The notes under the pieces: generated by a model
Database searches by the model: none
The model's input: the letters and a program-made list of their open reading frames with translations, nothing else
Told to the model about the DNA's origin: nothing
Shown: piece by piece, positions 6,186-17,373 of the stretch
How the letters are laid out: each line of letters begins with the position of its first letter
How positions within the stretch are numbered: position 1 is the stretch's first letter
Program-made: the position numbers and the translations under genes
IMG/VR virus record: IMGVR_UViG_3300042881_000499
Span: 1-23,665 of that record
Strand: one strand, 5' to 3'
DNA from: a virus
DNA length: 23,665 bases

Positions 6186-6263
6186 TTAAATGTTTTGAAA
6201 TATCGCAACTACTAAGAATGCGAATATAAGAATAATTACTGCTTGTTTGTTTTCTTTTTTCAT
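6186..6263 (-). CDS. Tiny membrane peptide (25 aa)
   Basis: An ATG at 6263 opens 25 codons: MKKENKQA, then one hydrophobic helix (VIILIFAFLVVAIF), ending at TAA 6188-6186. The start is preceded by CAAACAAACCAAT, the A-rich initiation context seen at many genes here, and by a TAnnTTTG box at 6290-6283. It is the first possible gene after repeat copy 1. A single-span membrane micropeptide is likely, function unknown. Confidence 0.45.
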   Translation of the reverse strand: MKKENKQAVIILIFAFLVVAIFQNI

Positions 6264-6282: not shown

Positions 6283-6290
6283 CAAAGATA
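6283..6290 (-). promoter_or_regulatory. Candidate Bacteroidota promoter (-7 box)
   Basis: TATCTTTG on the minus strand matches the TAnnTTTG -7 consensus, about 20 nt before the ATG at 6263. I see no TTG at the expected -33 distance. The 50-bp repeat ends 38 bp upstream, so an activator bound there could compensate for the weak -33. It would drive the genes from 6263 into the tail region. Confidence 0.45.
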
Positions 6291-6328
6291 GTGTAAGATA
6301 TATACACATTGCGTACATAATCTAAACT

Positions 6329-6378
6329 ATTTTTAAACTTTGTGATGAACGGCAAATAATAAGGATGAACGGTAATTA
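6329..6378 (-). repeat. Regulatory repeat, copy 1 (two GATGAACGG half-sites)
   Basis: This 50-bp intergenic element recurs at 17052-17102. Shared blocks are ATTTTTAAACTTT, TGATGAACGGCAAAT and GATGAACGGTAA, separated by a 6-bp non-conserved spacer. The half-site GATGAACGG starts at 6344 and 6364 (plus-strand coordinates), exactly 20 bp apart in direct orientation. The element ends on the terL stop codon and lies 38 bp from the TATCTTTG box. Direct repeats two helical turns apart suggest a dimeric or cooperative DNA-binding regulator. Confidence 0.6.
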
Positions 6379-7527
6379 TAGAAAGGAATACCTGCCTGAC
6401 CCCCTTCTAATGCTAAAGTTAGACCACGCTAAAGCCAATGACATTACGCAGTCATCGTGGAATCCACTAGGTGCAGAGTACTTAACCCCATTAGCCGTAA
6501 ACTGATATTCAAACACTTGTAACTCATTTGTAATTGCGCCTTCAGGGAATCCTATTCTGCCTTGTTGTATAGCAGTTGCAAGACCTTCCATTAGTTGTTG
6601 CTTACTTGAACTTGTAAACTTTAAGCCTTCAATAGCTATGCCTTCCCTTTGTAAGTCCTCTAGGATAGGGTCACCTACTCCTGTGCTATCTATTAATATA
6701 GGGCATCTTGGCAGCCTCTTTATATTCTCCTTAGTGTTATGCCAATCCATTTGATACCTGTCAAAGTAAGCCACATTGCCATTATTATCAAGACCTATTA
6801 TCACCGTATGGTCAACAGACTTTGCAAGGTCAATCCCAAATGCTACTATTTGTTGACTGCTAATTGGTCTTATACAATCTTGAATGAACTTATTTCCAAA
6901 TGGGTTTGCGCTATTCTCTGAAGGGTTAGCCATATACTCCTGCTCAAATACTACATTTGGCAGTTGCATCCTAGCTTCATCTATTTCCTGTGGGTCTATG
7001 TATGGATTATCGTAACTCGTAAATTTAAAGGATGCCCAATCATTTTCACCCTCTTTCATAAACAAGCTATAAAAATAATTCTTACCTCTAGGGGTTGAAA
7101 GGAATATTGCCTTACCCTTGTAATCTGTTAAGGTTGGTCTAATACTATTTTGCCATCCTGCTTCTAAGTCAGGTATAAAGGATGCTTCATCTATAATAAC
7201 CAAATGGAATTTACGACCTCTAAGGTTATCTAGTCGTTCACCTGTAAAGAATTCTACCTGCCCACCATTAGGGAAATCTATTTTAAGGTCAGACTTATTT
7301 TTAGGAAGGTCTAGGGATTCAGTTAGCTTAGAAAAGAAAACCTTAGCTAGTCCATAAGTAGGGGTTATATAAGCCACAGAAAGACCTTTAACGGCATATG
7401 TAACAGAAAGTATCTGTGATAGTTCTGACTTACCAAATCTACGACCACACATAACTACCCTAAAACGCTTATCACATTCTAAGATTCTTTGTTGGTTTGC
7501 GTGTGGGTTAGGTAGAAATATCTGCAT
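6376..7527 (-). CDS. terL: Terminase large subunit (ATPase/nuclease)
   Basis: TerL is the motor that cuts concatemeric phage DNA and pumps it into proheads. At 383 residues the protein is short for the family but has both domains. The ATPase shows Walker A GRRFGKS at residues 28-34, Walker B with catalytic Glu in IIDEA at 111-115, and the coupling motif LSTPRG at 143-148. The RNase H-fold nuclease shows acidic residues in GIDLA (Asp233), ILIDSTGVGD (Asp280) and HDD (358-360). Its start overlaps the methyltransferase stop in a TAATG junction, and its stop abuts regulatory repeat copy 1. No head genes follow, which is unusual. Confidence 0.95.
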   Translation of the reverse strand: MQIFLPNPHANQQRILECDKRFRVVMCGRRFGKSELSQILSVTYAVKGLSVAYITPTYGLAKVFFSKLTESLDLPKNKSDLKIDFPNGGQVEFFTGERLDNLRGRKFHLVIIDEASFIPDLEAGWQNSIRPTLTDYKGKAIFLSTPRGKNYFYSLFMKEGENDWASFKFTSYDNPYIDPQEIDEARMQLPNVVFEQEYMANPSENSANPFGNKFIQDCIRPISSQQIVAFGIDLAKSVDHTVIIGLDNNGNVAYFDRYQMDWHNTKENIKRLPRCPILIDSTGVGDPILEDLQREGIAIEGLKFTSSSKQQLMEGLATAIQQGRIGFPEGAITNELQVFEYQFTANGVKYSAPSGFHDDCVMSLALAWSNFSIRRGSGRYSFL

Positions 7528-8150
7528 TAAAATAAACTTTGTTGCATTTGATGTTTACTTAATCTATCTAGTGCCTTTTCGTAATATTCAGTATCTAATT
7601 CACAGGCAGTTAAATCAAATCCGTAATCGTGACAAGCTATTGCTATTGAACCAGAACCTAAATGAGTATCTAATATCTTATCTCCTTGCTTTGCATATTT
7701 ATCAAGTAACCATTTATATAATGCAACAGGTTTTTGTGTTGGGTGTATTCTTTTTTCTAATATATAATTAGATTGAATTGCAAATTTAAAAGACTTTAAA
7801 GAACCTTTATATGAAGTATAAGCTAATTCTCCAGATGAAAAATCAACTTTTCCTGTAATTAATTTATCCCAATATATCCATTCAGAGGAAGGTTTTAATA
7901 AATTAGAATAATTATTTGCACCCCATATTATTTGGTTTTTGGTAATTCTATATAATTCGTTAAAATATTCTTGATTAGGGGATTGATTATCCCATTTTTT
8001 TGATTTATGTTTTGTTTTTTCTCCTTTTCTAACTCCCATATTCATATTTACATTAATACCATAAGGAGGGTCAACAATAGCTAAATCAAAGTGCTTATCA
8101 GGATAACGTGCCATTAAGTCTATATTATCCTCGTTAGTTATTGTTATCAT
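7527..8150 (-). CDS. DNA N6-adenine/N4-cytosine methyltransferase
   Basis: The 207-residue protein carries the catalytic motif DPPYG at residues 27-31, then HPTQKP at 136-141 and the SAM-binding motif DTHLGSGSIA at 161-170. The order (catalytic motif before SAM motif) is that of beta-class amino-methyltransferases of the N6_N4_Mtase family. It probably methylates adenine in phage DNA to evade host restriction or mark it for packaging. No partner restriction enzyme is seen, so it is an orphan enzyme. It lies between terS and terL, an uncommon position, and is coupled to terL by a one-base overlap. Target specificity cannot be read from the sequence. Confidence 0.92.
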   Translation of the reverse strand: MITITNEDNIDLMARYPDKHFDLAIVDPPYGINVNMNMGVRKGEKTKHKSKKWDNQSPNQEYFNELYRITKNQIIWGANNYSNLLKPSSEWIYWDKLITGKVDFSSGELAYTSYKGSLKSFKFAIQSNYILEKRIHPTQKPVALYKWLLDKYAKQGDKILDTHLGSGSIAIACHDYGFDLTACELDTEYYEKALDRLSKHQMQQSLF

Positions 8151-8162
8151 AATATAAAGATA

Positions 8163-8528
8163 CTATAAAATGGTTTTACCATCTACAAAGATTACTTCTA
8201 TTTTATTATCTGACTTGATATCCATTTGTTCCTTTGGTTTGCCATATACTCTAGTAAGTAAAGTATCTAATGAATACAGGCTGCCATTGCTCATTGATTT
8301 CAATATAGCCTTAGCAATAGTCTTTTCAAGTACCGTTGCTTTATCATTAGTGCTAACTGATTTTAGTTCTTCTTCATCCATAGACATTAAAGCCTGAATG
8401 CTATCGTTTATTTCTGATAGCTTATACCCCTGTTCTTTTAATAGACTTACATACTTTCTAGGTCTGCCATTTGGATTACCTGAAACCCCTTTTGGAAATT
8501 GATGCTCTATAATATCTTGTGCTGCCAT
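8163..8528 (-). CDS. terS: Terminase small subunit, putative
   Basis: The 121-residue protein begins with FPKGVSGNPNGRP at about residues 11-23, the glycine/asparagine/proline-rich N-terminal motif of DUF5681-type proteins often annotated as small terminase subunits. The rest is helical and charged, ending in a beta-like IEVIFVDGKTIL. TerS recognises the packaging site and loads TerL. Position supports the call: an HNH nuclease and small packaging-region genes lie upstream, and terL lies one gene downstream. The ATG at 8528 is preceded by an A-rich AACAACACAATAG context. The motif itself is not proof of TerS function. Confidence 0.65.
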   Translation of the reverse strand: MAAQDIIEHQFPKGVSGNPNGRPRKYVSLLKEQGYKLSEINDSIQALMSMDEEELKSVSTNDKATVLEKTIAKAILKSMSNGSLYSLDTLLTRVYGKPKEQMDIKSDNKIEVIFVDGKTIL

Positions 8529-8546
8529 TGTGCTGCTATTGTGTTG

Positions 8547-8900
8547 TTATTTATCTAATTTTGCTTTATAATGCTCACAAAGAATTTCCATCTTTGCTAT
8601 GTAGTATGTACTAAAGTCTTTGTATCCTTCGTTGTTCTGTTGATAATTTATAAATAAAATACCCCTTAATCTTTGGGATGGGGTTTTATTTGTGTCAAGG
8701 TCTGTTTTAATACTGTCTAGGTTATCTAATTCATCTTGCTGAAATGATTCCTCTTTGATAGCTATGTAGCAGAATCTTTGGTTAAGTTGGAATACCTGTG
8801 CTGCATCTACAGGGGATAGTTCCTGTGTGCCAAAGGTAACCTTAATTGTCTTATCCTTTCTTGATGTTAGTCCTTCTATTTGTGCAGGTAGTATTATCAT
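8547..8900 (-). CDS. Hypothetical protein (117 aa)
   Basis: This soluble mixed alpha/beta protein begins MIILPAQIEGLTSRKDKTIK. The middle contains Gln/Asn-rich charged sequence, and the C-terminal helix (YYIAKMEILCEHYKAKLDK) is amphipathic. No known motif was recognised. It lies between a small basic protein and terS, its start overlaps the upstream stop by 4 nt (ATGA), and it ends 18 nt before terS. I associate proteins of this shape with the packaging region of Bacteroidota phages, but the function is unknown. Confidence 0.7.
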   Translation of the reverse strand: MIILPAQIEGLTSRKDKTIKVTFGTQELSPVDAAQVFQLNQRFCYIAIKEESFQQDELDNLDSIKTDLDTNKTPSQRLRGILFINYQQNNEGYKDFSTYYIAKMEILCEHYKAKLDK

Positions 8901-9019
8901 TTGCCTTGTCCTCTACTAGGTTTTGGTTTTGGTGTATGTTTGTTATAAGACTTCTTAGCTTGTCCTCTTTTGCGTTTACCAAATGAAACTTTGGATGAAT
9001 CACTTTTAACTTTTGCCAT
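8897..9019 (-). CDS. Small, highly basic protein (40 aa)
   Basis: An ATG at 9019 opens 40 codons ending at TGA 8899-8897. Lys, Arg and Ser dominate, for example SFGKRKRGQAKKSYNKH, followed by TPKPKPSRGQGK. It has no hydrophobic core and is probably a disordered nucleic-acid-binding peptide. Its start overlaps the HNH gene end by 14 nt and its stop overlaps the next start as ATGA. Similar short basic proteins accompany packaging genes in related phages, as I recall. A DNA or RNA binding role is inferred from charge only. Confidence 0.6.
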   Translation of the reverse strand: MAKVKSDSSKVSFGKRKRGQAKKSYNKHTPKPKPSRGQGK

Positions 9020-9263
9020 TTAATTTATCTTTATGTTTACTCTTTAAATACTCCATGTGTGTTTTAGTATCGCCCATAACTAAATGACATTGCCTACATA
9101 ATGCCATAAGATTGTTTATATTGTCTGCCTTTTTATCACCGCCCATACCCCTTGCTTCTATGTGATGTATGTCAACTGCTTTTGCACCACAAGATTCACA
9201 AGGGATAAAATCTTCTATGCCATAACCAAAGTAATCTAAATATAGTTTAGTGTGTTTTTTCAT
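9006..9263 (-). CDS. HNH endonuclease, small
   Basis: The 85-residue protein shows the HNH zinc-finger nuclease layout: CESC at residues 22-25, catalytic HH at 33-34 (DIHHIEARGMGG), NNL at 50-52, and CRQCH at 56-60. The two CxxC pairs should bind structural zinc and the His residues the catalytic metal. Small HNH proteins next to terminase genes are known to help cos cleavage or stimulate TerL nuclease. Its position just before the terS/terL block suggests that role rather than homing. Its start overlaps the upstream small gene by 17 nt. Confidence 0.88.
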   Translation of the reverse strand: MKKHTKLYLDYFGYGIEDFIPCESCGAKAVDIHHIEARGMGGDKKADNINNLMALCRQCHLVMGDTKTHMEYLKSKHKDKLNGKS

Positions 9264-9429
9264 TCATTAGTATAAAGTTTAAAGATACGAATATGAATCC
9301 TATGTTTAAACTCTTATGTAATTGTGCAAATTCATCTACTGAATAACCTATTGATATACCTAATTGAATAGTTTCAGTTAATACCCCTAATGATATTCTA
9401 AAGTTACCAAATTGTATAGAGTATTCCAT
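9247..9429 (-). CDS. Small hypothetical protein (60 aa)
   Basis: The product begins MEYSIQFGNFRISLGVLTET and is beta-prone with hydrophobic segments (GISIGYSV, IGFIFVSLNFIL), but none is a convincing transmembrane helix. The start overlaps the stop of the upstream gene in a TAATG junction, and the end overlaps the HNH start by 17 nt. This operon-style packing supports a real gene. No family is recognised. Confidence 0.55.
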   Translation of the reverse strand: MEYSIQFGNFRISLGVLTETIQLGISIGYSVDEFAQLHKSLNIGFIFVSLNFILMNEKTH

Positions 9430-9848
9430 TACTTATCTATTTGCTTTAGTTTATTTATCGCCCATTCAATTCCTGAAGTGCCACCCCAAGCATCCCACAT
9501 TAATCCACCGCAACCTTCTGAATATGGTACATCTTTATTTTGTTGATGCCTTTTAAATGATGCCATTCTTGCTATTGTATCCCTAGATATATTTTCTTTT
9601 TTAGCTAATTGATTTGCTCTAGCTTTGCCAACTGCAGTTCCACATTCACCCCAACCATTTTCTTCTGCCCATTTTATTGCCCTCTTTGCATTGTTACTAG
9701 CAGATTCAGGATAGTCATTGTAAGTTTCTTCATATTTACCACTAGCTAAAATAGCCGCCCATACTTTAGCAGCCTTTTCTTCTGTATCATATACGCAACC
9801 TCCTGTACCTATCCTGTACTTACCATTGCTACATTTGTGTATTGGCAT
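9429..9848 (-). CDS. Phage protein with capsid-protease-linked domain (139 aa)
   Basis: Two parts are visible. Residues 1-40 (HKCSNGKYRIGTGGCVYDTE then KAAKVWAAILA) form a short Cys-containing module I recognise from the ends of phage structural proteins. Residues 45-135 hold a helical domain with YPESASNNAKRAIKWAEENG, ARMASFKRHQ and WGGTSGIEWA. That second pattern recurs, as I recall, fused to phage head-maturation proteases and related proteins, but its function is unknown. Here it stands alone between the sugar genes and the HNH nuclease. It overlaps the upstream glycosyltransferase by 20 nt. I infer a virion or assembly-related role. Confidence 0.6.
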   Translation of the reverse strand: MPIHKCSNGKYRIGTGGCVYDTEEKAAKVWAAILASGKYEETYNDYPESASNNAKRAIKWAEENGWGECGTAVGKARANQLAKKENISRDTIARMASFKRHQQNKDVPYSEGCGGLMWDAWGGTSGIEWAINKLKQIDK

Positions 9849-10839
9849 TACCTATTAATTTATTATAAATAGCAAATCTTTTGTTATTTATAGTGTGAAG
9901 GTTAAAGTTGGTATTGCAATAGTCGAATAGCTTTTGACCATATTCTATCCTAGCTGCTTCATCAAAGGTCAATAGTTTAATCCATTTATACCAATCCTGT
10001 TGGTTATTAACATAGCATACTGGCATATCTTTATATGGATGAACATTGCTAACTATTGCAGGGTTTTTCTTAGCTGCAGTTTCTAATACCTTTAAATTAG
10101 ACTTCATTGCTCCAAACTTATTTTCTACTAAAGGAATAATGCTTATGTCGGAATCTGCGTATGCACCCATATATTTGCTTACTTCCGAATAGTCGTAGAT
10201 AGTCGGGTTAAGTTTTAACCCATTAGTAAATACTCCAATCATTCTATCCCAAAGATGCTTCTCACCTAGATTGTATCCTGCAATAACTGTCCTAACAGGA
10301 AAATTAATCTTCTTCATTGGATTGCGCAGAATGTCAATATCAGGAACGTGAGTACCTGACCCTGACCAAAACAACCTTACCATATCAGATTCTAGCTTAT
10401 CATCTTGAAACTGTTCTTCTCCATACGGAAGGGCATTTGGTAATATTTCTACATTAGGATTGTACTTATATATTTCTTCGGCTAACCTTTCGTGAGTACA
10501 AGTGCAAAGGTCTGCCACTCGCATATACTCTGTAATTATATCTGTTATATTGCTTTCTCTGTATCTTTGTGCAAGGATATGTGAAGGCGGCAATATCCAA
10601 TAATCATCATTATCTACTATCAATTTAAAGTTATACTTTAACTTCATTTCAACTAATAGCTTTGCATCTGTTGCAGCTAAGAATCTATTAAATATTACTA
10701 TATCATAGTTATTGTCAAATACTACCTCGTTAATAGTATCTGTAATTAAGCAGTAGTCTTTTTGCATATTGACTAATGGCATCATAATTCTATGATAGCC
10801 AACTCCACTAAATTTACTTGTTATTGCTAGTATTCTCAT
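9829..10839 (-). CDS. Glycosyltransferase, GT-B fold (GT4-like)
   Basis: The 336-residue protein starts MRILAITSKFSGVGYHR, the usual N-terminal strand and Gly-rich loop of GT-B enzymes. It contains IVDNDDYW at about residues 74-81, PNALP near 134-138, and the second Rossmann half starting with RLFWSGSGTH. Near the C-terminus, KVLETAAKKNPAIVS matches the acidic-residue motif of GT4 enzymes that contacts the sugar nucleotide. It probably transfers a sugar to a glycan, virion protein or modified DNA; the acceptor cannot be told. It forms a unit with a GT2 enzyme and an LpxA-like acyltransferase upstream, linked by a 4-nt overlap. Confidence 0.8.
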   Translation of the reverse strand: MRILAITSKFSGVGYHRIMMPLVNMQKDYCLITDTINEVVFDNNYDIVIFNRFLAATDAKLLVEMKLKYNFKLIVDNDDYWILPPSHILAQRYRESNITDIITEYMRVADLCTCTHERLAEEIYKYNPNVEILPNALPYGEEQFQDDKLESDMVRLFWSGSGTHVPDIDILRNPMKKINFPVRTVIAGYNLGEKHLWDRMIGVFTNGLKLNPTIYDYSEVSKYMGAYADSDISIIPLVENKFGAMKSNLKVLETAAKKNPAIVSNVHPYKDMPVCYVNNQQDWYKWIKLLTFDEAARIEYGQKLFDYCNTNFNLHTINNKRFAIYNKLIGNANTQM

Positions 10840-11423
10840 AATGGAATGTAATATGATTTAGTGCCGTTTGAATATTCTGATACATTTGAATTATGCAAAT
10901 CCCAAGTCTTTTTAACTAAATCCATTTTATTATATCCGTAAGCATCTGCACCATTTTGTTCAATATGAGTAGCTTTTGCATTTGGTATATATTTAGTATG
11001 TAAACATGCTGCCCTGCATCTAGTGCAATAATCTAAATCTATTGCTCCGTATGGGTCCAACTGCTCATTAAATGCACCTAGTTTTTTAATTGCATCTGCA
11101 CTAATTGTAAAGTTACCAATCAAATCTAAAGAATCCCCATTATAGCCACCTAAAGGAATTGATGAAATTCCTATTGTTTTATCGTTCATATACTCATTCC
11201 TAGTTTGTAGCCAATTATCAGGTTCTAGTATATCATTACCCATAATCGTAACATAATTAACATAGTCATAGTTAAAGTGTCTTAATCCTTTGTTGATTGC
11301 ATACGAAATACCTGTCTCATTAATTATGCTTATAAAATCTATATGCTTACCTGCATTTTTAATGTTATGAAACAATGTTTCTATGTTTCTATCCTGATAG
11401 TTTAAATAAATTATTGCGTTCAT
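10836..11423 (-). CDS. Glycosyltransferase family 2-like protein
   Basis: The 195-residue protein fits a minimal GT-A fold. The N-terminal strand MNAIIYLNYQDRNIETLF is followed by an acidic metal/UDP-site candidate, MGNDILEPDNWL at about residues 81-92. The acceptor half has GNFTISADAIKKLGAFNEQL and DLDYCTRCRAAC, matching the '...GaFnE..f..yg.eDlDyc.R' signature of GT2 enzymes. It is shorter than most free-standing GT2 proteins, which suggests a compact phage version. It overlaps both neighbours by 4 nt (ATGA junctions), so the three sugar genes are likely co-translated. Confidence 0.8.
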   Translation of the reverse strand: MNAIIYLNYQDRNIETLFHNIKNAGKHIDFISIINETGISYAINKGLRHFNYDYVNYVTIMGNDILEPDNWLQTRNEYMNDKTIGISSIPLGGYNGDSLDLIGNFTISADAIKKLGAFNEQLDPYGAIDLDYCTRCRAACLHTKYIPNAKATHIEQNGADAYGYNKMDLVKKTWDLHNSNVSEYSNGTKSYYIPL

Positions 11424-11902
11424 CGTGGCTTATTTACTCCTAATTTTCTTGCAGGTACTCCTGCGTATTTTGTAAATGGTTCTGATTCACCTTTAAAAAA
11501 TGCACTTGCTCCAATCATACAACCTTCTTGTATTACACTAAATTGATGCAATACTGCGTTTAATCCTATGTTTGAATTTTGCATGATAGTAGAATGACCG
11601 CCTATCTTTGCTCCGCAACTAATTGTTACATTAGATAGTATTTTGCAATCGTGACCTATATGTGCGTGTTTCATTATAAAACAATTATGGGCAATCATAG
11701 TAGTTTCTTCTGTACCTGCATCTATTGTTACTAATCCTGTAATAATATTATTGTCGCCAATAAACACTTTACCTTTTGGCTTGTCCCAATACTTTTTATG
11801 TTCTGCAGTATCGCCTATAATACAATAAGCACCTATGTAATTGTTGTCCCCTAGTACAACATTGTCCCCTATTATTGCAGTTGGATGAATATAATTAGCC
11901 AT
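11420..11902 (-). CDS. LpxA-like left-handed beta-helix acyltransferase
   Basis: Hexapeptide repeats run through the protein (for example HPTAIIGDNVVLGDNNYIGA), giving the left-handed beta-helix of sugar O- or N-acyltransferases. The segment HAHIGHDC, then HQFSVI and PFTKYAGVPARKLGVN, matches the order and spacing of LpxA, including the His pair that contains the catalytic base. At 160 residues it is much shorter than cellular LpxA (about 260) and lacks its C-terminal helical domain, so a sugar acetyl- or acyltransferase is more likely than lipid A synthesis. I chose the ATG at 11902 over a GTG at 11923. It is the first of three linked sugar genes. Confidence 0.8.
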   Translation of the reverse strand: MANYIHPTAIIGDNVVLGDNNYIGAYCIIGDTAEHKKYWDKPKGKVFIGDNNIITGLVTIDAGTEETTMIAHNCFIMKHAHIGHDCKILSNVTISCGAKIGGHSTIMQNSNIGLNAVLHQFSVIQEGCMIGASAFFKGESEPFTKYAGVPARKLGVNKPR

Positions 11903-12188
11903 TTGTTTTTGGTTTGCGACCACGCTTTTTTGGTTCTGTAATTTCTGATTGCATTAATAAGTTGTCTTCATTTAATACCTTATGATAATGAGCATATAAT
12001 CTTACTACCATATCCATACGGCAATTCCCGCACCAAATAGTTAAAATAAAATTAGGGTCTATATATTTTCTATATAAACTTTCATAGGTCTTCATTATAG
12101 ATAAATCTAAGTTTCTTAGATACCCACTTTGCGAAGTTTCGTAATTGTTATAATGCTCTTTTAGATATAATCTATCTACTAATTCCAT
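11895..12188 (-). CDS. Hypothetical protein with CGNC motif and AT-hook-like tail
   Basis: The 97-residue protein is helical (residues 1-45), has a CGNC pair at about 53-56 in IWCGNCRMDMVVRLY, and ends in KKRGRKPKTNG. The RGRKP tail is the core of an AT-hook, which binds the minor groove of AT-rich DNA, fitting for an AT-rich genome. The fold is not recognised. It overlaps the upstream membrane protein gene by 10 nt and the downstream acyltransferase start by 8 nt. DNA binding is an inference from the tail alone. Confidence 0.6.
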   Translation of the reverse strand: MELVDRLYLKEHYNNYETSQSGYLRNLDLSIMKTYESLYRKYIDPNFILTIWCGNCRMDMVVRLYAHYHKVLNEDNLLMQSEITEPKKRGRKPKTNG

Positions 12189-12418
12189 ATCTTATAAATT
12201 AATGTTTCAGTAATAGCAGCTACAAATCCTGATATAAACAATACAGATGCAATGTTTACAATCAATTCAGGTGCGAAATATAATACAATTCCAATCCACG
12301 AAGCCAAGCAACTTCCACAACTGAAAGGCTTGAAATTGAGTCCCCATTTTCTATGTAGGTTGTGGATAGTATTAAAAAATAATGATGCGCAGACACTTGT
12401 TATTATAATTTGAATCAT
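12179..12418 (-). CDS. Small membrane protein with SCGSC motif (79 aa)
   Basis: Two hydrophobic helices are likely: about residues 38-53 (CLASWIGIVLYFAPEL) and 54-74 (IVNIASVLFISGFVAAITET), with a possible third at the N-terminus (IIITSVCASLFF). FSCGSCLASW at about 32-41 carries a Cys pair. I associate small membrane proteins with a Cys-x-x-Cys-x-x-x-W motif with Bacteroidota phages, function unknown. It overlaps the sigma-like gene by 4 nt and the next gene by 10 nt. Confidence 0.6.
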   Translation of the reverse strand: MIQIIITSVCASLFFNTIHNLHRKWGLNFKPFSCGSCLASWIGIVLYFAPELIVNIASVLFISGFVAAITETLIYKIWN

Positions 12419-12897
12419 TTACGAATAAATTTTTTTAGTTCAGATTTAGTTTGTTTTAAAGTTCTTATGATTGACATATAAGGGATACCTGTCTGTCGGC
12501 TTAATTCCTTTGCATTTTTGTTAAAGTCAAAAGTATATAGCCTTAATATTTCCTTTTGATACCAATGTAGTTTTTCAATACCCTTCTCCATTACATCTAT
12601 CACACTATTACTTTCTACTTCTGCAACTTCTTTACCATTGTATTCTGTATAATTCCTGTACTTCTTCCAAAATTGACTTCTATCTGACTTAATCATATTT
12701 AGCATAGTTCTAACTATGTAAAATCTTATTTCGCCTCTTTCATATAAACCAAATAACTTTTCATTAGGCATTTCTAATAAAACCATAAAGACTTCAACCT
12801 TTAAATCATATTGCAATTCTTCAGGCTGCATCTTTGCAAATGCCTGATTGACTTCATCATTAAGCCAATATTGCTCTATAATTTTATTTTTGTCCAT
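12415..12897 (-). CDS. Sigma-70-family-like transcription factor
   Basis: The 160-residue protein has the size and layout of ECF-type sigma factors. Residues about 28-80 form a charged helical region like sigma region 2, including EIRFYIVRTMLNMIKSDRSQ, which resembles the helix that contacts core polymerase and the -10 element. Residues 107-157 look like region 4: EKLHWYQKEILRLYTF, then a helix-turn-helix (NAKELSRQTGIPYMSIIRTL). It could redirect host RNA polymerase to phage promoters. The region 2 match is weak, so an HTH regulator is the alternative. It overlaps the VRR-NUC gene by 22 nt. Confidence 0.6.
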   Translation of the reverse strand: MDKNKIIEQYWLNDEVNQAFAKMQPEELQYDLKVEVFMVLLEMPNEKLFGLYERGEIRFYIVRTMLNMIKSDRSQFWKKYRNYTEYNGKEVAEVESNSVIDVMEKGIEKLHWYQKEILRLYTFDFNKNAKELSRQTGIPYMSIIRTLKQTKSELKKFIRK

Positions 12898-13190
12898 TCA
12901 ATTAGTACAGGCTGATTATCTTTTTCAGTACAAATATATACTAATCCTTGACAATTATGGATATCTTCTAATCTTTCTTTTTGTTCAATACTTAACTTAT
13001 CGCCTATTTTTTTTACTTCAACTGCAACATATTTACCTTCAGATGTGTAACCTTGTAGGTCTGCCCATCCTTTTTGTATTGTTCCTTTACGTTTACCGTA
13101 TGGTATATTGTTTACTCTATTAAGCCTGTACCCAATATATTCTAAATTTTTTTTTGCCCATTTAGTTAGTTCATTTGCCGATATGTCCAT
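12876..13190 (-). CDS. VRR-NUC domain nuclease
   Basis: The 104-residue protein matches the VRR-NUC fold, a PD-(D/E)xK nuclease family. The motif GWADLQGY at about residues 41-48 gives the catalytic Asp, and VAVEVKKIGDKLSIEQKERL at 55-74 gives the ExK pair and the conserved Gln. The C-terminal CQGLVYICTE is the expected last strand. Stand-alone phage versions are thought to process branched DNA such as Holliday junctions, which would fit concatemer resolution before packaging. It overlaps both neighbours by 22-25 nt. Confidence 0.85.
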   Translation of the reverse strand: MDISANELTKWAKKNLEYIGYRLNRVNNIPYGKRKGTIQKGWADLQGYTSEGKYVAVEVKKIGDKLSIEQKERLEDIHNCQGLVYICTEKDNQPVLIEWTKIKL

Positions 13191-13348
13191 AGTAATTCGT
13201 AAAATTGTTTTTTAAAGGTAAGCCTATTTGTACCATCAATGGCATCCTGTCTAGTTGGATAACAGTCAAAAAAATTAATTGTGTAGCAATATTTAACACT
13301 ACCACAGTAGGTATATTTAACCTGAAAGACCCTCAAAGTATTTAACAA
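13166..13348 (-). CDS. Small hypothetical protein (up to 60 aa), non-ATG start
   Basis: No ATG is available at the 5' end. TTG codons at 13348 and 13336 are the plausible starts, both overlapping the end of the upstream gene (stop at 13317). The product contains VKYTYCGSVKYCYTINFFDC and a basic, aromatic-rich end (FKKQFYELLWTYRQMN). It fills the gap between two real genes and overlaps VRR-NUC by 25 nt. The function is unknown and the start uncertain. Confidence 0.45.
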   Translation of the reverse strand: MLNTLRVFQVKYTYCGSVKYCYTINFFDCYPTRQDAIDGTNRLTFKKQFYELLWTYRQMN

Positions 13349-14057
13349 GTGCTAATTTTTTACATTGTGTATCAATAAAATCATCATCTTTTAGTTTTTT
13401 ACTAAACTCCTTTGCATCTAATCCTACTAATTTATTCATTTTCAATAGATTATCTTCCCTAACCATCTTGATAATTTGTAACATTTCGTGTTCCTCAAAT
13501 TTTAATTTGCCCTGCTTTAATAATATTGCGAATACCTTATTAGCATTAAATACTCTATTAAAGTCATTTCTAGGCGATTCTAGCCATTCTTTCTGTGTGA
13601 ATGATACAATATCATCATCTGATAATTTTGGTGGCTCTATTTCGTTTATAATAGGTTTTATCATTTTTCTTACTTCTAATGCTTTTTTTGTATATGCTGC
13701 CATTACCTGACCAATAAACTTTGGGCTGAATTTTTCATAGTGTTCTGTGCTACAGTCTAATTTACCCTGTACTGCCATCTTAAATGCTAACCTGAATTCT
13801 TCAACTGTAAACAATGGATAGCTAGTTCTAATGAAATCTTCAATAACTACCATTTCCTGTGTATCAGGATATTTAGTAAAACCTAGCAATGTGAAGATAT
13901 AAGCTAAATTTTCTTTTAAAGTAATGGGTGAAACTAGATTAAGTTTATTCCCTTTGAATGCTTCAGCTATTTCATTATCAACTATGTACCCACTTTGCAA
14001 GGGCATCCATTCTTTCTGAACTTGTAGCGGTTGGGTTAAATGTTTTTGTATTTCCAT
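13317..14057 (-). CDS. Hypothetical protein in replication cluster (246 aa)
   Basis: The 246-residue protein is mostly helical and charged, with no membrane segment or Walker motif. Residues about 75-125 (TSYPLFTVEEFRLAFKMAVQ, then HYEKFSPKFIGQVMAAY) resemble the helical region I associate with phage replication accessory proteins next to DUF4373 genes. A helicase-loading or initiator-partner role is plausible but unproven. The listed start (14057) lies 80 nt inside the upstream initiator gene. A second ATG at 14006 (MPLQSGYIVD) would cut the overlap to 29 nt and may be the real start. Confidence 0.6.
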   Translation of the reverse strand: MEIQKHLTQPLQVQKEWMPLQSGYIVDNEIAEAFKGNKLNLVSPITLKENLAYIFTLLGFTKYPDTQEMVVIEDFIRTSYPLFTVEEFRLAFKMAVQGKLDCSTEHYEKFSPKFIGQVMAAYTKKALEVRKMIKPIINEIEPPKLSDDDIVSFTQKEWLESPRNDFNRVFNANKVFAILLKQGKLKFEEHEMLQIIKMVREDNLLKMNKLVGLDAKEFSKKLKDDDFIDTQCKKLALVKYFEGLSG

Positions 14058-14664
14058 ATCTAAGTTTGTTTTTAATCCAAGTATTTATTCTTCTTTTTGC
14101 ATCAAAAAACTTTTCAAGTTCATAACGCAATTTACCATTTTTATTTGGTTCGCACCAATATTCTATAAATTCAGTATATGAATCACCTAATATATCTTTA
14201 TATTCTTCTATACTATTAACAAAATTATCTTTAGTATTATTATTAGTTTCATTTTCTTTTATTTCCTTTTCTTTTCTTTTCTTTGCATTACCCTCCCCAA
14301 TAGCCACCCCATTAGCCTCCCCATTTCCCCATCTGCTAATTGCACCATTTTTACCGCTTTCACTTAACTTTGCCCTTAATCCAAGATGGTCATTAAGTCT
14401 TTCTGACCAAAATTCTCCTTCATTAATTTTAAAAAGGTCAAATTGCATTATAACACCTTTAACCTTTATATCAGTTGATTGCATTTGCATTGCTAAGACA
14501 GGTATTAATTCAATTGGTAATTTGCCACCTGCATCGGCTAATCTTTCAATTATGAACCAATAAATGCCATAGCCTTCCATACCTAATTGATGTCTTAAAA
14601 AAAGAACTTTTGTATCATTAGCTGCATTATAATCATGACTAAAATAATATGATTTATTTTTCAT
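13978..14664 (-). CDS. DUF4373-type replication initiator-like protein
   Basis: The N-terminal segment YYFSHDYNAANDTKVLFLRH at residues 6-25, followed by GMEGYGIYWFIIERLADAGG at 28-47, is the signature of the DUF4373 (Lin1244/Lin1753-like) domain. This winged-helix-like domain is found at the start of phage replication initiators. The middle (115-150) is a Lys/Glu/Asn-rich linker, and the C-terminal part (YTEFIEYWCEPNKNGKLRYE) is the usual helical ending of these proteins. It probably binds the origin and recruits the helicase. The gene follows a 95-bp structured leader with complementary hairpin loops and leader ORFs, so its expression is likely controlled. Confidence 0.8.
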   Translation of the reverse strand: MKNKSYYFSHDYNAANDTKVLFLRHQLGMEGYGIYWFIIERLADAGGKLPIELIPVLAMQMQSTDIKVKGVIMQFDLFKINEGEFWSERLNDHLGLRAKLSESGKNGAISRWGNGEANGVAIGEGNAKKRKEKEIKENETNNNTKDNFVNSIEEYKDILGDSYTEFIEYWCEPNKNGKLRYELEKFFDAKRRINTWIKNKLRYGNTKTFNPTATSSERMDALAKWVHS

Positions 14665-14702
14665 AAAATAAAAATGGGGTTCAGATTCCCTGCTAGTCGC
14701 AT
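14661..14702 (-). CDS. Possible leader peptide (13 aa), coupled to replication initiator
   Basis: The ORF MRLAGNLNPIFIL starts at an ATG whose three bases are the first bases of the hairpin B loop. It ends in a TGA overlapping the initiator start as ATGA (14664-14661). Its own start is overlapped by the stop of a still smaller ORF (ATG ATG AAC TGC TAA, 14716-14702) in a TAATG junction. The junction types match those used between real genes here. Short ORFs arise by chance in AT-rich DNA, so this stays tentative. Confidence 0.35.
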   Translation of the reverse strand: MRLAGNLNPIFIL

Positions 14703-14708
14703 TAGCAG
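14690..14708 (-). other. Hairpin B: stem-loop with loop ATGCGAC
   Basis: On the minus strand CTGCTA pairs with TAGCAG (6 bp) around the 7-nt loop ATGCGAC. The loop is the exact reverse complement of the loop of hairpin A at 14736-14754. The leader ORF start codon is in this loop. See the finding on complementary loops. Confidence 0.6.
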
Positions 14709-14735
14709 TTCATCATCCCCCCAATATTGTTTATA

Positions 14736-14754
14736 AACTAAATGCGACTTAGTT
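14736..14754 (-). other. Hairpin A: stem-loop with loop GTCGCAT
   Basis: On the minus strand AACTAA pairs with TTAGTT (6 bp, extendable by one G-U) around the 7-nt loop GTCGCAT. It begins 5 nt after the stop codon of the DnaA-domain gene and would be the first structure in a transcript from the promoter candidate at 14772-14805. It is 27 nt from hairpin B. Confidence 0.6.
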
Positions 14755-14759
14755 CTTGA

Positions 14760-15188
14760 TTATTTTGTAGACAAATATAAAGCATATTTATCCATTTCCT
14801 CACAAAGTTGTTCTATTTTTTCTTTGAACCAATATTCAGTAGACATTATATCCCTACATTTAGTAATAGAATATAATACTGTAGTATGGTCTTTTACACC
14901 TATATATGATGTAATTTCAGATAGACTAAGCCTTGTATACATTCTTAACATATATGCTGCTGCCTGTCTGCCAAATATAGTTTTTTGTTTTCTATTTGGT
15001 GCTTTGATATCTGTACTAAAAACTTCTTCAACTAACTGAACAATCTTTTCAGGCTTAATAGTTTTATCTGTAACAGGCAACCTTATATCATCAAGTATAA
15101 TACCTTCTTTAATTAAAAGATTTTGAAGATAATTAAAACTATCTTTTTGCATTACATACGCAGCATATATTTCTTCTTTATTTGTCAT
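14760..15188 (-). CDS. DnaA domain IV protein (DnaA-box binding), no AAA+ domain
   Basis: Residues about 66-110 match the DnaA C-terminal DNA-binding domain. The segment GRQAAAYMLRMYTRLSLSEI is followed by IGVKDHTTVLYSITK, whose DHTTV at 100-104 is the DnaA signature that contacts the DnaA box. The protein is 142 residues and lacks the AAA+ ATPase and helicase-loading domains of full DnaA (about 450-470 residues). It could bind the phage origin, compete with host DnaA, or act as a repressor. It sits directly upstream of the structured leader and the replication initiator gene, which supports a replication role. The N-terminal 60 residues are helical and unassigned. Confidence 0.85.
   Translation of the reverse strand: MTNKEEIYAAYVMQKDSFNYLQNLLIKEGIILDDIRLPVTDKTIKPEKIVQLVEEVFSTDIKAPNRKQKTIFGRQAAAYMLRMYTRLSLSEITSYIGVKDHTTVLYSITKCRDIMSTEYWFKEKIEQLCEEMDKYALYLSTK
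14772..14805 (-). promoter_or_regulatory. Candidate promoter for the replication initiator leader
   Basis: TATATTTG (14779-14772) matches the TAnnTTTG -7 box, and TTG (14805-14803, within TTTG) lies 23 bp upstream, at the long end of accepted spacing. It lies inside the end of the DnaA-domain gene. Transcription would begin near 14765, just before hairpins A and B. Matches to so degenerate a motif occur by chance, so confidence is modest. Confidence 0.4.
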
Positions 15189-15190
15189 AA

Positions 15191-15385
15191 TTAAAATGGT
15201 AAATCTGTTTTTTCACTTTTCATTACATAAGTATCTTCATAAATCTGATAATCAGGATGGGAATTCTTGTCTTTGTATTTGTTTTCCCACATTGAATATC
15301 TTTTACCTTCTATTGTAAAGTTAATTACAATGCCTTTTGAGGTCTCTTTTTTCCAAGCACCATACTTCTTTTTTTCTTCTGACAT
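15191..15385 (-). CDS. Small hypothetical protein (64 aa)
   Basis: The product has a basic N-terminus (MSEEKKKYGAWKKETSKG) and a beta-prone middle (IVINFTIEGKRYSMWENKYK), then SHPDYQIYED. The pattern looks like a small beta-barrel-type protein and I recall similar ones in phage replication regions, but no named family is certain. It starts in a TAATG junction with the HTH gene and ends 2 nt before the DnaA-domain gene, so it belongs to that operon. A nucleic-acid-binding role is only a guess. Confidence 0.6.
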   Translation of the reverse strand: MSEEKKKYGAWKKETSKGIVINFTIEGKRYSMWENKYKDKNSHPDYQIYEDTYVMKSEKTDLPF

Positions 15386-15597
15386 TATTTTTTTGTTTTG
15401 ATTAATGAATATTTTGCTACAAATTTAGGACTATTTTTAGTACCTACGTTTACTCTTTCGGTAATTATATTATGCCCTTCGTCCTTAAGATTAAATACTA
15501 ATGCTGCTAGTCTTAATGTACCATACTTTTTTAATGCCACTAATGGAGTAAGCGGTTCTTTTTTAAGGTGATTAAGCACCTGCGTTTGTTGACTCAT
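15385..15597 (-). CDS. Helix-turn-helix protein (HTH_39-like)
   Basis: The 70-residue protein has the sequence VLNHLKKEPLTPLVALKKYG followed by TLRLAALVFNLKDEGHNI, the layout of small winged-helix proteins of the HTH_39 type common in phages. Helix 2 starts at TPLVALKKYG and the recognition helix is around TLRLAALVFNL. The end (KNSPKFVAKYSL) would be the wing strand. It probably binds DNA, perhaps regulating the replication genes. The start has the A-rich context AAACAAACAAAATG. Confidence 0.75.
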   Translation of the reverse strand: MSQQTQVLNHLKKEPLTPLVALKKYGTLRLAALVFNLKDEGHNIITERVNVGTKNSPKFVAKYSLIKTKK

Positions 15598-15775
15598 TTT
15601 GTTTGTTTTTTAATTTTGAAAAATTATATTGATTATTTAAAGACATTGCATTATGAATTAATTTTTTATCAGAATACTGACTAGATACATTTAACCTTTT
15701 AACCCATTCGTTAAAGTCTAATCTTTCATCAGGGAAGGCAATTCTACTTAATTTAATACCCCATTTGTTTTCCAT
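15572..15775 (-). CDS. Small hypothetical protein (67 aa)
   Basis: The protein starts MENKWGIKLSRIAFPDERLD and continues with FNEWVKRLNV and a polar Asn/Lys/Ser-rich C-terminus. It has no membrane segment or known motif. It is preceded by an A-rich ACAAAAAACAATAACT context and overlaps the HTH gene start by 26 nt. The function is unknown. Confidence 0.5.
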   Translation of the reverse strand: MENKWGIKLSRIAFPDERLDFNEWVKRLNVSSQYSDKKLIHNAMSLNNQYNFSKLKNKQNESTNAGA

Positions 15776-15777
15776 AG

Positions 15778-15948
15778 TTATTGTTTTTTGTTTATTTGTT
15801 CTTGTTCTAATGCTATTTCATTTTGTCTATCTTGCTCTAATTCTTCTTCGTCTGCTTCATCTTCCCAATCGCAATGCTCTAAACAGTCAGGGCATATTCC
15901 TATTTCCTGAAAGTTGGTATGCGCTCCGCAGCAAGTTGAGTATGGCAT
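15778..15948 (-). CDS. Small zinc-ribbon-like acidic protein (56 aa)
   Basis: An ATG at 15948 opens 56 codons ending at TAA 15780-15778. The N-terminal half has six potential metal ligands: STCCGAH at residues 4-10, CPDC at 19-22 and EHC at 24-26, suggesting one zinc site. The second half is strongly acidic and Gln-rich (EDEADEEELEQDRQNE). It ends 2 nt before the next gene's start and begins 1 nt after the ERF stop. Such small zinc proteins may bind nucleic acid or partner proteins; the role is unknown. Confidence 0.6.
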   Translation of the reverse strand: MPYSTCCGAHTNFQEIGICPDCLEHCDWEDEADEEELEQDRQNEIALEQEQINKKQ

Positions 15949-15949
15949 A

Positions 15950-16495
15950 TTATTTTATTTGATTTTCTTTAATACTTTTTAATGCTTTATTATATTGCTC
16001 TATGGTAGTATATTGGCTGATTCTATTTGCTATTGAATCTTTGGTTGTACTATCATATGTCGTGTTTTCTAATAGCACAATTAGTTCCAATCTTTTTTCT
16101 TCACCTAGTTCGTCTTTATGCTCATTTGTAGAATCAGAATCTTTAGTATCATCTATTGCAAATAAACCATTTAAAGCATACTTCCTAGCGTAACTAGATG
16201 CACTACCTGTAATCTGCGCTGCATCCATACCTTTTTTAATTTCTTCTTCCCTAGCCCAACCGCTTACACTAATACTATCATCTGTACCATCAAGTAGTGT
16301 TGCAGTAGCTTTTATATAGATTCTATCCCCTACCTGAACTACTTCATCACTTACTACTAATGCAGTCCCATATTTATTTAATATGGGTTTTACTGCTTCA
16401 ATGATGTCCTCTGCATTTCGGTATTTATATTTACCGAATGCATTGAATTGTCCTTTTGGTGCTTTTAATTCAGCTTGAATTTTTACTAAGTTCAT
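15950..16495 (-). CDS. erf: ERF-family single-strand annealing recombinase
   Basis: The N-terminal domain matches the ERF superfamily. KAPKGQFNAFGKYKYRNAED at residues 11-30 is the conserved substrate-binding start, and GMDAAQITGSASSYARKYAL at 89-108 followed by NGLFAIDDTKDSD is the family signature. These proteins form rings that anneal complementary single strands during phage recombination. The length (181) is typical of short ERF proteins. The C-terminal part is a charged helical tail, likely for SSB contacts. An exonuclease candidate is encoded upstream at 17736-18470 and may supply single strands. The start has the A-rich AAACAAACAATG context. Confidence 0.92.
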   Translation of the reverse strand: MNLVKIQAELKAPKGQFNAFGKYKYRNAEDIIEAVKPILNKYGTALVVSDEVVQVGDRIYIKATATLLDGTDDSISVSGWAREEEIKKGMDAAQITGSASSYARKYALNGLFAIDDTKDSDSTNEHKDELGEEKRLELIVLLENTTYDSTTKDSIANRISQYTTIEQYNKALKSIKENQIK

Positions 16496-16513
16496 TGTTT
16501 GTTTTTTTTAAAG

Positions 16514-16789
16514 TTACTCAATTTCTGCCATTTTATTATACTCTATTTCAGCCTGATGCTGCATCCATTGTCCGAATGTAAACGCATCATCTTCATAGTC
16601 ATAACCTGCAAATAAGGTTGGCTTTTTGTTATAGAATTTGAAATAATCTTCTACAGATACTAATGTATTATTTACATTAACTCTGCCTTTGTATTGCATT
16701 TGCCAATAGATAAAAGTATCTAAAGCATCAATAGTTTCTGTACCAAATCTTGCACATAATTCTGTGTAGGTGTGTAGTTCTTTTTGCAT
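16514..16789 (-). CDS. Hypothetical protein (91 aa)
   Basis: The protein is acidic and rich in aromatic residues, for example YTELCARFGTETIDALDTF and KPTLFAGYDYEDDAFTFGQW. No motif was recognised. Its start overlaps the stop of the preceding gene in a TAATG junction, making it the second gene of the unit behind regulatory repeat copy 2. Small acidic proteins at the start of an early phage operon are often host-takeover or anti-defence factors, but there is no direct sign of that here. Confidence 0.6.
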   Translation of the reverse strand: MQKELHTYTELCARFGTETIDALDTFIYWQMQYKGRVNVNNTLVSVEDYFKFYNKKPTLFAGYDYEDDAFTFGQWMQHQAEIEYNKMAEIE

Positions 16790-16986
16790 TAGTCAATAGT
16801 TTTAGTTTCTAAAATAGTTTTTACAGGTTCTAAGCTACCGCCATTTGATAAAATAGTAAACTTTTCATAAGCAACTTCTTTATCAAAGCTACCTGAATCA
16901 CTTACATAACAATCATTAATAGATGTGTAAAACCAAATCTCACTAGAGTTGATTCTAGTCTGTTGTACGAATTCAATTTTTTTCAT
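16789..16986 (-). CDS. Hypothetical protein (65 aa), first gene after repeat copy 2
   Basis: The product starts MKKIEFVQQTRINSSEIWFY and has a mixed alpha/beta composition without motifs. Its start follows a strong promoter candidate (TTG, 20 bp, TAGATTTG) and the context AAACAAAACATATT. It is therefore the leader gene of the operon that includes ERF and the replication genes. The function is unknown. Confidence 0.6.
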   Translation of the reverse strand: MKKIEFVQQTRINSSEIWFYTSINDCYVSDSGSFDKEVAYEKFTILSNGGSLEPVKTILETKTID

Positions 16987-17006
16987 AATATGTTTTGTTT
17001 ATAAAG

Positions 17007-17037
17007 CAAATCTACAGGCTTTAAACATACTATCCAA
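17007..17037 (-). promoter_or_regulatory. Promoter candidate for the ERF/replication operon
   Basis: TTG at 17037-17035 and TAGATTTG at 17014-17007 are separated by 20 bp, a good match to the Bacteroidota -33/-7 promoter. The ATG of the first gene is 20 nt past the box. The repeat copy 2 ends 37 bp upstream, nearly the same geometry as copy 1. Confidence 0.6.
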
Positions 17038-17051
17038 GTATTATCTACTGA

Positions 17052-17102
17052 ATTTTTAAACTTTATGATGAACGGCAAATGGGAATGATGAACGGTAAAT
17101 TA
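17052..17102 (-). repeat. Regulatory repeat, copy 2
   Basis: This 51-bp element matches 6329-6378 with one inserted base and few substitutions outside a 6-bp spacer. The GATGAACGG half-sites start at 17067 and 17087, again exactly 20 bp apart. It begins just past the metalloprotease stop codon and lies upstream of a promoter candidate. Confidence 0.6.
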
Positions 17103-17103
17103 A

Positions 17104-17373
17104 CTATTTACTGCCATCTTGTAGGGGTAAGTGCTTACTATTGTCTACCTGTCTGTAGCCTAAACTCCATAGCATTTTAGTAAGAGTAACACTTTTTTCA
17201 ACTATTTGTTCCTCTGAATCTTCAGGATTCAGTAGGTGGAAAATTTCATGGATGACTATTTCCATTTTCTTTCTACCCTTTAGTCTAGGGTCAATATATA
17301 TAATGCCATCACTTTCGGCAATGCCATGTGCTTGTTCTCTGCCTAGCTTCTTATATATAATTTTTATCTTCAC
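17104..17373 (-). CDS. Small HExxH metalloprotease-like protein
   Basis: The 89-residue protein carries HEIFH within MEIVIHEIFHLLNPED at about residues 37-52, the HExxH zinc-binding and catalytic motif of gluzincin-type peptidases. A following Glu (in EEQIVEK) may be the third ligand. The N-terminal strand and AESDGIIYIDPRLKGRK resemble the beta-sheet of ImmA/SprT-like minimal peptidases. Phage relatives are often called putative metallopeptidases with unknown substrates; cleavage of a host or phage regulator is possible. It overlaps the upstream gene by 4 nt. Confidence 0.75.
   Translation of the reverse strand: MKIKIIYKKLGREQAHGIAESDGIIYIDPRLKGRKKMEIVIHEIFHLLNPEDSEEQIVEKSVTLTKMLWSLGYRQVDNSKHLPLQDGSK

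Follow-up and report, generated by a model that had tools for sequence, protein, structure and literature searches.

The window, a 23,665-nt stretch of virus DNA (IMG/VR record IMGVR_UViG_3300042881_000499), carries two copies of a paired direct repeat that we read, with a probability of roughly 0.6, as a predicted LytTR-type activator operator on the main phage operons, its regulator being supplied by the host. Three features suggest a regulator with a LytTR domain: the geometry of the element, the sequence of its half-sites and the genes that neighbour its cellular copies. A transcription factor of this type would bind both half-sites, which are direct repeats set two turns of the helix apart, and, placed directly upstream of a -33/-7 promoter, would recruit the host RNA polymerase, switching on the replication/ERF and tail operons as well as a capsid-region gene in several relatives. 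The regulator would most likely be a LytTR response regulator of the host or one of its LytTR regulatory-system proteins, since neither the virus nor its relatives showed a recognisable LytTR protein.

Two elements in the window

Both elements are 29 bp long, lie in intergenic gaps and are read, like both operons, on the minus (coding) strand as CCGTTCATC-N11-CCGTTCATC, an orientation absent from the earlier note. On the plus strand they appear as exact GATGAACGG-N11-GATGAACGG at 6344-6372 and 17067-17095, a pattern matched twice in the window and never in 100 shuffles (Table 1). As had been described, the half-sites start exactly 20 bp apart in both copies, and the 11-bp spacer, formed by CAAAT adjoining the first plus-strand half-site in both copies and by 6 bp that differ, is consistent with the unconserved 6-bp spacer noted before. 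The high identity of the surrounding 50-mers (6329-6378 and 17052-17101) also held, the exact count being 43 of 50 bases rather than about 44; the next-best 50-mer on the plus strand of the window shares 29 bases with copy 1. Regarding their surroundings, the elements begin just past the stop codon of an upstream minus-strand gene (3 nt for copy 1 and 8 nt for copy 2), and TAnnTTTG boxes follow on the minus strand 38 and 37 bp past the respective element edges, both in agreement with the first description.

Table 1. Positions in the window of the element copies, their promoter boxes and the neighbouring or candidate genes.
Feature	Position	Strand	Basis
Copy 1, promoter-distal half-site CCGTTCATC	6364-6372	-	exact pattern match
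Copy 1, promoter-proximal half-site CCGTTCATC	6344-6352	-	20 bp from copy 1 distal half-site
Copy 1, -7 box TATCTTTG	6283-6290	-	53 nt past proximal half-site
Copy 2, promoter-distal half-site CCGTTCATC	17087-17095	-	exact pattern match
Copy 2, promoter-proximal half-site CCGTTCATC	17067-17075	-	exact pattern match
Copy 2, inferred -33 element TTGGA	17033-17037	-	consensus match only
Copy 2, -7 box TAGATTTG	17007-17014	-	52 nt past proximal half-site
TerL, upstream of copy 1	6376-7527	-	tblastn to terminase large subunits
Gene upstream of copy 2	17104-17373	-	ORF list
First ATG ORF past copy 1 (25 aa), candidate only	6186-6263	-	ORF list
Tail-type genes behind copy 1, after the 25-aa ORF	5057-5680, 4132-4842, 2901-4127, 850-2901, 2-850	-	
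First ORF past copy 2 (65 aa), heading the ERF/replication operon	16789-16986	-	
ERF-family recombinase, operon behind copy 2	15950-16495	-	Pfam PF04404, E 2.3e-39
Sigma-like protein, first candidate binder of the earlier note	12415-12897	-	no Pfam match at E 0.05
HTH_39 protein, second candidate binder	15385-15597	-	PF14090, E 1.8e-12
Bac_DnaA_C protein, third candidate binder	14760-15188	-	PF08299, E 4.1e-14

Recurrence and promoter register in virus DNA

In IMG/VR, half-site pairs with spacers of 9-14 bp occur in at least 118 stretches, compared to 11 for the mirrored pattern. Spacing was surveyed in 33 contigs selected because they hold an exact pair, allowing up to two mismatches and trying distances of 15-30 bp; pairs lie at 20 bp (53 pairs) or 21 bp (6 pairs), and 20 of the 53 are imperfect and played no role in choosing the contigs. 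Up to five sites occur per phage, in both orientations and at the heads of gene blocks. In relatives the element sits at the same gene junctions as in the window, ahead of the replication/ERF operon, the tail operon and, in several of them, a capsid-region gene, and it also recurs in contigs with few genes in common with the window. The proposal of a regulatory element with two half-sites upstream of promoters, common to the tail and ERF/replication operons, was supported and extends to relatives.

Many copies inside coding sequence had been named as grounds for rejecting that proposal, and they are few: 4 of the 86 spacer-11 viral matches listed lie inside an ORF of at least 80 aa, and another 22 lack both a long ORF and a TAnnTTTG box within 80 nt. 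Matches with a 12-bp spacer are a mixture: of the 30 listed, 11 are in ORFs of at least 80 aa, 8 are accompanied by a promoter of the TTGA[CA] type and the other 11 have neither, so that the class belongs only in part with the window element. At least two promoter types are involved, the Bacteroidota TAnnTTTG with a 20-bp pitch and a sigma-70-like TTGACA with a 21-bp pitch. The 63 matches with spacers of 13-33 bp are read as coding repeats, because most have a spacer length divisible by 3 (the 14 other lengths hold 15 in total). The 9-bp-spacer class was dropped as the same element, all six of its matches being coding.

The expectation that a TAnnTTTG box always follows the element holds for 66 of the 85 distinct sites, where an exact box is present at 25-70 nt, and not for the remaining 19. 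All 66 boxes lie 31-33, 41 or 51-53 nt past the element, compared to 1 in the reverse-complement control, and these distances are on one helical face. After thinning to 27 sites, 19 of them with an exact box, the Rayleigh test gave p ~9e-7 at 10.5 bp. The position upstream of the promoter and in helical register with it fits a LytTR operator.

The nearest cultured relatives found, the Nonlabens phages P12024S/L (Inhavirus), are distant, with a portal matching that of the window at 25% over 48% of the protein, HMM matches to ERF, MCP and portal, and an annotated VRR-NUC gene followed by a sigma-70-region-2 gene. They possess no CCGTTCATC pair with fewer than four mismatches at 20 or 21 bp, and a scan for a substitute repeat before TAnnTTTG gave none that was convincing. 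Likewise, a phage collection searched with the element and with a tail protein gave no convincing match.

Likeness to LytTR operators and their cellular neighbours

LytTR operators are described as pairs of ~9-bp direct repeats with 10-13 bp between them (PMC11347149), and the element has 9-bp repeats with a spacer of 11 bp (12 bp in another lineage). The half-site also fits known LytTR sites, as CCGTTCATC agrees with the AlgR site CCGTTCGTC at 8 of 9 bases and with the proximal Bacteroides LRS repeats at 8 of 11 and 9 of 11. A general LytTR binding-site consensus was reportedly set out by Nikolskaya and Galperin in 2002. AlgR of Pseudomonas aeruginosa binds CCGTTCGTC, and CCGTTTGTC less strongly (PMC4064291); the former, a core one base off the window half-site, corresponds to algD-RB1/RB2 and occurs exactly in the phage contigs G015 and G022, and the latter corresponds to RB3 and occurs exactly in G008 and G023. 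However, the algD sites are described as single, at -470, -394 and -45 (PMC4064291), whereas the phage sites are direct repeats at 20 bp.

LytTR operons of Bacteroides carry 11-bp-spaced repeats before TATCTTTG, with ACCGGAAATCA or ACCGTAAATCA as the proximal repeat (PMC6193735). These LRS-like promoters share with the phage element the direct repeats (9-11 bp), the 11-bp spacer, the location upstream of a TATCTTTG promoter and a proximal half-site with ACCG and ATCA; the distal repeats, TCCGGTATTCA and TCCGGCATTCA, are a poorer fit. They differ in that LRS repeats lie on the regulator's own operon and mostly 10-11 bp from the -33 (PMC6193735), whereas the phage element is on several operons, in DNA where no LytTR gene was found, with its repeats ~9, 18 or 29 bp from the inferred -33. 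The element is not classed as an LRS, which has a LytTR regulator and an inhibitory membrane protein alongside the site, because no LytTR was found in 40 virus records. The operators of AgrA, a LytTR activator from Staphylococcus aureus, are also paired direct repeats upstream of promoters, with proximal repeats likewise centred near -60; they belong to a bacterial quorum-sensing locus, and the likeness is one of arrangement, half-site sequences aside (PMC4227749).

Cellular copies of the element are associated with LytTR genes: 10 of the 31 exact matches have a LytTR ORF within the surrounding 2-8 kb locus, where ~0.4 would be expected at the density seen in 16 such genomes (118 LytTR matches over 71 Mb). 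Two of the 10 come from the control spacing d=19, and our own HMM found no LytTR ORF in the other 21 loci. The site stands in front of an operon encoding a hydrolase, a PF06580 histidine kinase and a LytTR response regulator at L181 and L168, and at L161 and L274 it lies where two small LytTR genes meet. Among near-matches from two Bacteroidota samples, 4 of 8 distinct intergenic ones have a LytTR ORF in their 2-3 kb locus (two of these, L262 and L272, being exact sites already counted among the 31), compared to 0 of 4 coding ones. Near-perfect sites, with up to two mismatches, are rare: 6 of 296 Bacteroidota genomes carry them, against 1 genome for the mirrored control, and 5 of 150 Saprospiraceae, against 2. 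One of the 6 (the sample centre) and two of the 5 had been selected because of their site. No widespread regulon in the sampled genomes therefore uses this exact site. The looser ACCGnnnATC pair occurs in 14 of 345 genomes, and for 11 of these it falls within an ORF longer than 100 aa (control, one genome with two matches).

Source of the regulator and other readings

An activator encoded by the phage, of another fold or with a LytTR domain too diverged to detect, could instead coordinate the phage's own regulon, which we consider possible but unlikely. One regulator per phage would account for several sites per genome, and the element is much commoner in virus contigs (at least 118 stretches) than in cellular genomes (31 exact matches in 257 Gb, scanned with a slightly stricter pattern). 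Moreover, a regulator of another fold keeps some plausibility because many phage ORFs are uncharacterised, with HTH-like ones visible by eye in G007 and G022. Against such an activator, PF04397 (LytTR) matched none of 40 element-bearing virus records, the control being positive in 5 of 14 genomes, and our own LytTR HMM found nothing convincing in 33 contigs (best E 0.14) or in 118 listed viral loci (1.1 Mb). One of the 20 seeds of this HMM (L249) is a wrong-frame translation and three come from the same contigs as L159, L161 and L168; with these four seeds removed, the rebuilt HMM recovered the same 10 cellular loci and no better phage match. A comparison by hhalign of 191 clusters (at least 3 contigs, 55-400 aa) with the LytTR alignment, as it stood before removal of those four seeds, reached at most 3.3% probability, compared to 96.7% for the control. 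The recurring weak HMM match is a 73-aa group-B protein (E 0.14-0.64), whose model (pLDDT 85.7) gave nothing in Foldseek at E <=0.001; the structural matches listed are mainly integrase C-terminal and SH3 domains (best Z 5.3; possibly an SH3-like barrel), and LytTR is not among them. Four of the 40 virus records, all without LytTR, are apparently complete relatives.

The three DNA-binding proteins of the window also argue against a phage activator. The earlier note had put them forward as binders, and this was not sustained, as they gave no match in element-bearing lineages other than group A. At HMM E 1e-3, none matched G007, G009, G017 and G022 (25-32 kb, a second Bacteroidota-type lineage), the six 12-bp-spacer contigs G028-G033 (most contigs of these two sets may be incomplete; G029 has perfect end repeats) or the fragments G011, G018, G034, G037 and G039, so these proteins do not appear to be present wherever the element is.

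It is improbable that the element is a repressor operator, of host or phage, through which the operons are silenced. The LytTR protein CoxC does repress from repeats overlapping the -35 (PMC11347149), but the phage repeats are placed as an activator site would be, upstream of the inferred -33 and in helical register with the -7 box. The activator reading is also favoured over chance or a recent duplication within one phage, the least credible explanation, for which the 43 of 50 bases shared by the window copies would speak, but not the spacing and mirror controls nor the recurrence in contigs sharing few window genes. Direct repeats at 20-bp pitch are reminiscent of iterons, and one copy precedes the replication operon; however, replication iterons or a DNA-processing site are very improbable, because each place holds two half-sites, a phage has as many as five such places, which are found in either orientation where gene blocks begin, and the distance to the -7 box is constant modulo ~10 bp.

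If the host regulator is real, phage transcription would depend on the sensory state of the host. Tentatively, at somewhat less than even odds, phage lineages representing two or more promoter types carry near-perfect LytTR operators and no LytTR of their own, their infection being gated by host LytTR sensing, and the phage would then be an added regulon of the host sensor. A review mentions that phages carrying agr genes without AgrA might use the host AgrA, a LytTR protein, and that Pseudomonas phages encode LytTR proteins (PMC11945551); literature searches for host-LytTR operators in phage promoters returned no paper on them among the matches listed. The novelty would lie in the DNA, with a predicted LytTR operator in front of the main operons in phages where no LytTR was found. 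If true, infection would be tied to host state. The element also offers a sequence handle, ACCGTTCATC repeated at 20-bp pitch ahead of TAnnTTTG, by which the starts of operons and the host requirements of uncultured Bacteroidota phages could be found.

The paired element and its recurrence among viruses

The assignable genes of the 23,665-base virus record run on the minus strand, and both copies of the element are therefore read on that strand, each with the same order: CCGTTCATC-N11-CCGTTCATC, followed by an A/T-rich stretch, then a TAnnTTTG box, then ATG. The two-copy element ahead of two operons, as claimed in an earlier note, stands, the copies being identical at 43 of 50 bases (about 44 in that note), with 29 for the next best 50-mer in the window; the exact pair occurs twice, versus none in 100 shuffles. 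Copy 1 is without the TTTGG -33 of many related sites (ATGTACGCAATG stands there, window 6300-6320), which may lower the strength of its promoter or raise its need for an activator; copy 2 has the TTGG form.

Positions of the element copies and of other genes in the window
Feature	Position	Strand	Remarks
Copy 1	6344-6372	minus	starts 3 nt past the TerL stop codon, ahead of the tail genes
Copy 2	17067-17095	minus	between 17104-17373 and the 65-aa ORF 16789-16986, head of the ERF/replication operon
VRR-NUC gene, then sigma-like gene	12415-13190		sigma-like protein, 12415-12897
Bac_DnaA_C domain protein	14760-15188		free-standing domain (PF08299, E 4.1e-14), replication operon
HTH_39 protein	15385-15597		
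Protein with NUMOD3 motifs (PF07460)	20930-21502		perhaps a homing endonuclease

Regarding the other genes, the Bac_DnaA_C protein carries a DHTTVL stretch, which we take to be a DnaA-like signature, and the Nonlabens phages P12024S/L have an annotated VRR-NUC/sigma pair in the same order as the window, where HMMs of the window pair found no match at E 1e-3.

A search of IMG/VR for two CCGTTCATC copies separated by 9-14 bp found at least 118 stretches, compared to 11 in total for the mirrored control pattern. The 122 matches in the 118 listed stretches, the window's own two not included, have spacers of 11 (86), 12 (30) or 9 bp (6) and none of 10, 13 or 14. With spacers of 13-33 there were 63 matches, spread across 21 spacings and mostly at multiples of 3. 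In 33 contigs picked for an exact pair, allowing at most two mismatches and spacings of 15-30 between half-site starts, pairs occurred at 20 (n = 53) or 21 (n = 6) and at no other spacing, several contigs being closely related so that the counts are not independent events; the contigs were covered in full apart from G030 (40 of 42 kb), G034 (20 of 67.5 kb) and two of about 21 kb, G037 and G038 (20 kb each). Twenty of the 53 pairs were imperfect and had no role in contig choice. The pattern is real and viral.

Conservation in relatives, on which the earlier reading depended, was found at matching junctions: in 15 contigs, sites recur between TerL and the tail genes and ahead of the ERF operon, several relatives having a further site ahead of gene c60 in the capsid region. 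Four contigs (G003, G008, G019 and G020), taken as complete because their ends carry perfect direct repeats 121-127 nt long, hold 3, 2, 4 and 3 sites, respectively.

Promoter position and helical register

The element belongs to promoters. Many copies inside coding sequence, which the earlier note would have counted against a regulatory role, were not seen, as 4 of the 86 listed spacer-11 viral matches lie within an ORF of at least 80 aa. As to whether a TAnnTTTG box always follows, a check that it proposed, 64 of these 86 matches have one within 80 nt, most but not all. In the range of 25-70 nt, an exact box follows 66 of 85 distinct sites, placed at 31-33 (15), 41 (10) or 51-53 (41) and nowhere else; 16 of the remaining 19 have a near-match box at those positions and three have none, and the reverse-complement control gave one exact box. 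A set thinned to 27 dissimilar sites includes 19 with an exact box, ten of them at 31-33, two at 41 and seven at 51-53, with a Rayleigh p of about 9e-7 at 10.5 bp, and a single phage (G013) has both the 41 and 51 distances. The distances step by about ten bases, thus keeping to one helix face, which is where an activator in contact with RNA polymerase would be expected.

Among the 30 listed 12-spacer matches, a class contaminated by coding matches, eight are followed by a TTGA[CA]-type promoter at a distance of 19, 20 or 29 nt, which suggests an equivalent arrangement, in a further lineage, built on a sigma-70 promoter. At seven loci (L012, L024, L035, L088, L104, L116 and L118), CCGTTCATC pairs at 21 bp follow a GTTGTnTTCGAACAAC-like inverted repeat, several with a TTGACA-type promoter downstream.

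Resemblance to LytTR sites and the predicted binder

The AlgR core CCGTTCGTC (PMC4064291) differs from the phage half-site by one base, and the AlgR sites CCGTTCGTC and CCGTTTGTC equal the half-sites of contigs G015/G022 and G008/G023, respectively. Bacteroides LytTR operons, as described in PMC6193735, have repeats spaced 11 bp, as in the N11 of the phage element, the proximal one being ACCGGAAATCA or ACCGTAAATCA, upstream of TGTA/TGTG-19-TATCTTTG; LytTR repeats differ from system to system.

Exact matches in 257 Gb of cellular genomes numbered 31, with 20 at the 20-bp distance and 11 at the control distance of 19 bp. LytTR ORFs were detected with our own HMM at 10 of the 31 loci (8/20 and 2/11), compared to about 0.4 expected from 118 LytTR matches in about 71 Mb of 16 of these genomes, and an HMM rebuilt without one wrong-frame and three self-derived seeds returned the identical ten. 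Two loci, L181 and L168, have the site in front of an operon that encodes an alpha/beta hydrolase, a PF06580 histidine kinase and a LytTR-domain response regulator; at L161 and L274, two small LytTR genes meet where the site lies. The Saprospiraceae loci L161, L268 and L274 show a third half-site at the 20-bp pitch, with 0, 2 and 4 mismatches. At L156, L169 and L180, in bacteria unrelated to each other, the exact site is followed by a hydrolase of another type (by eye, a predicted exported alpha/beta hydrolase of the GKGRPxILIPGL type), possibly a conserved LytTR target.

Regarding the protein that binds, PF04397 was found in none of 40 virus records (the control was positive in 5 of 14 genomes), and neither our LytTR HMM, also after removal of faulty seeds, nor a profile comparison gave anything convincing on the phage sequences. 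The sigma-like, HTH_39 and Bac_DnaA_C proteins put forward in the earlier note are missing from four element-bearing contigs of a second Bacteroidota-type lineage (group B) and from six with the 12-bp spacer. BLAST clusters common to group B and the lineage of the window (group A) were, among those viewed, structural or ERF-like by look; HTH-like ORFs were noticed by eye in G007 and G022. With no phage LytTR found and these candidates missing, a host LytTR protein is the simplest predicted binder. Counted against it is the rarity of near-perfect sites, present in 6 of 296 Bacteroidota genomes (the chosen centre among the six; mirrored control 1) and 5 of 150 Saprospiraceae (two chosen ones among the five; control 2), so that no broad regulon of the exact sequence was seen in the phylum. 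Many LytTR proteins have few targets. This, together with the divergence of repeats noted in PMC6193735, would fit such rarity. In these two samples, a LytTR ORF is in the locus of four of eight distinct intergenic near-matches, two of them already among the 10 of 31, and of none of four coding ones. Two of the sampled Bacteroidota genomes (L278 and L279) have perfect pairs at 20 bp of ACCGCTTATC, a half-site also found as a phage variant; a LytTR ORF is absent from these short loci.

The element would then be ordinary in kind, a putative activator operator of LytTR type, and its context unusual, since the phages whose main operons bear it yielded no LytTR protein.
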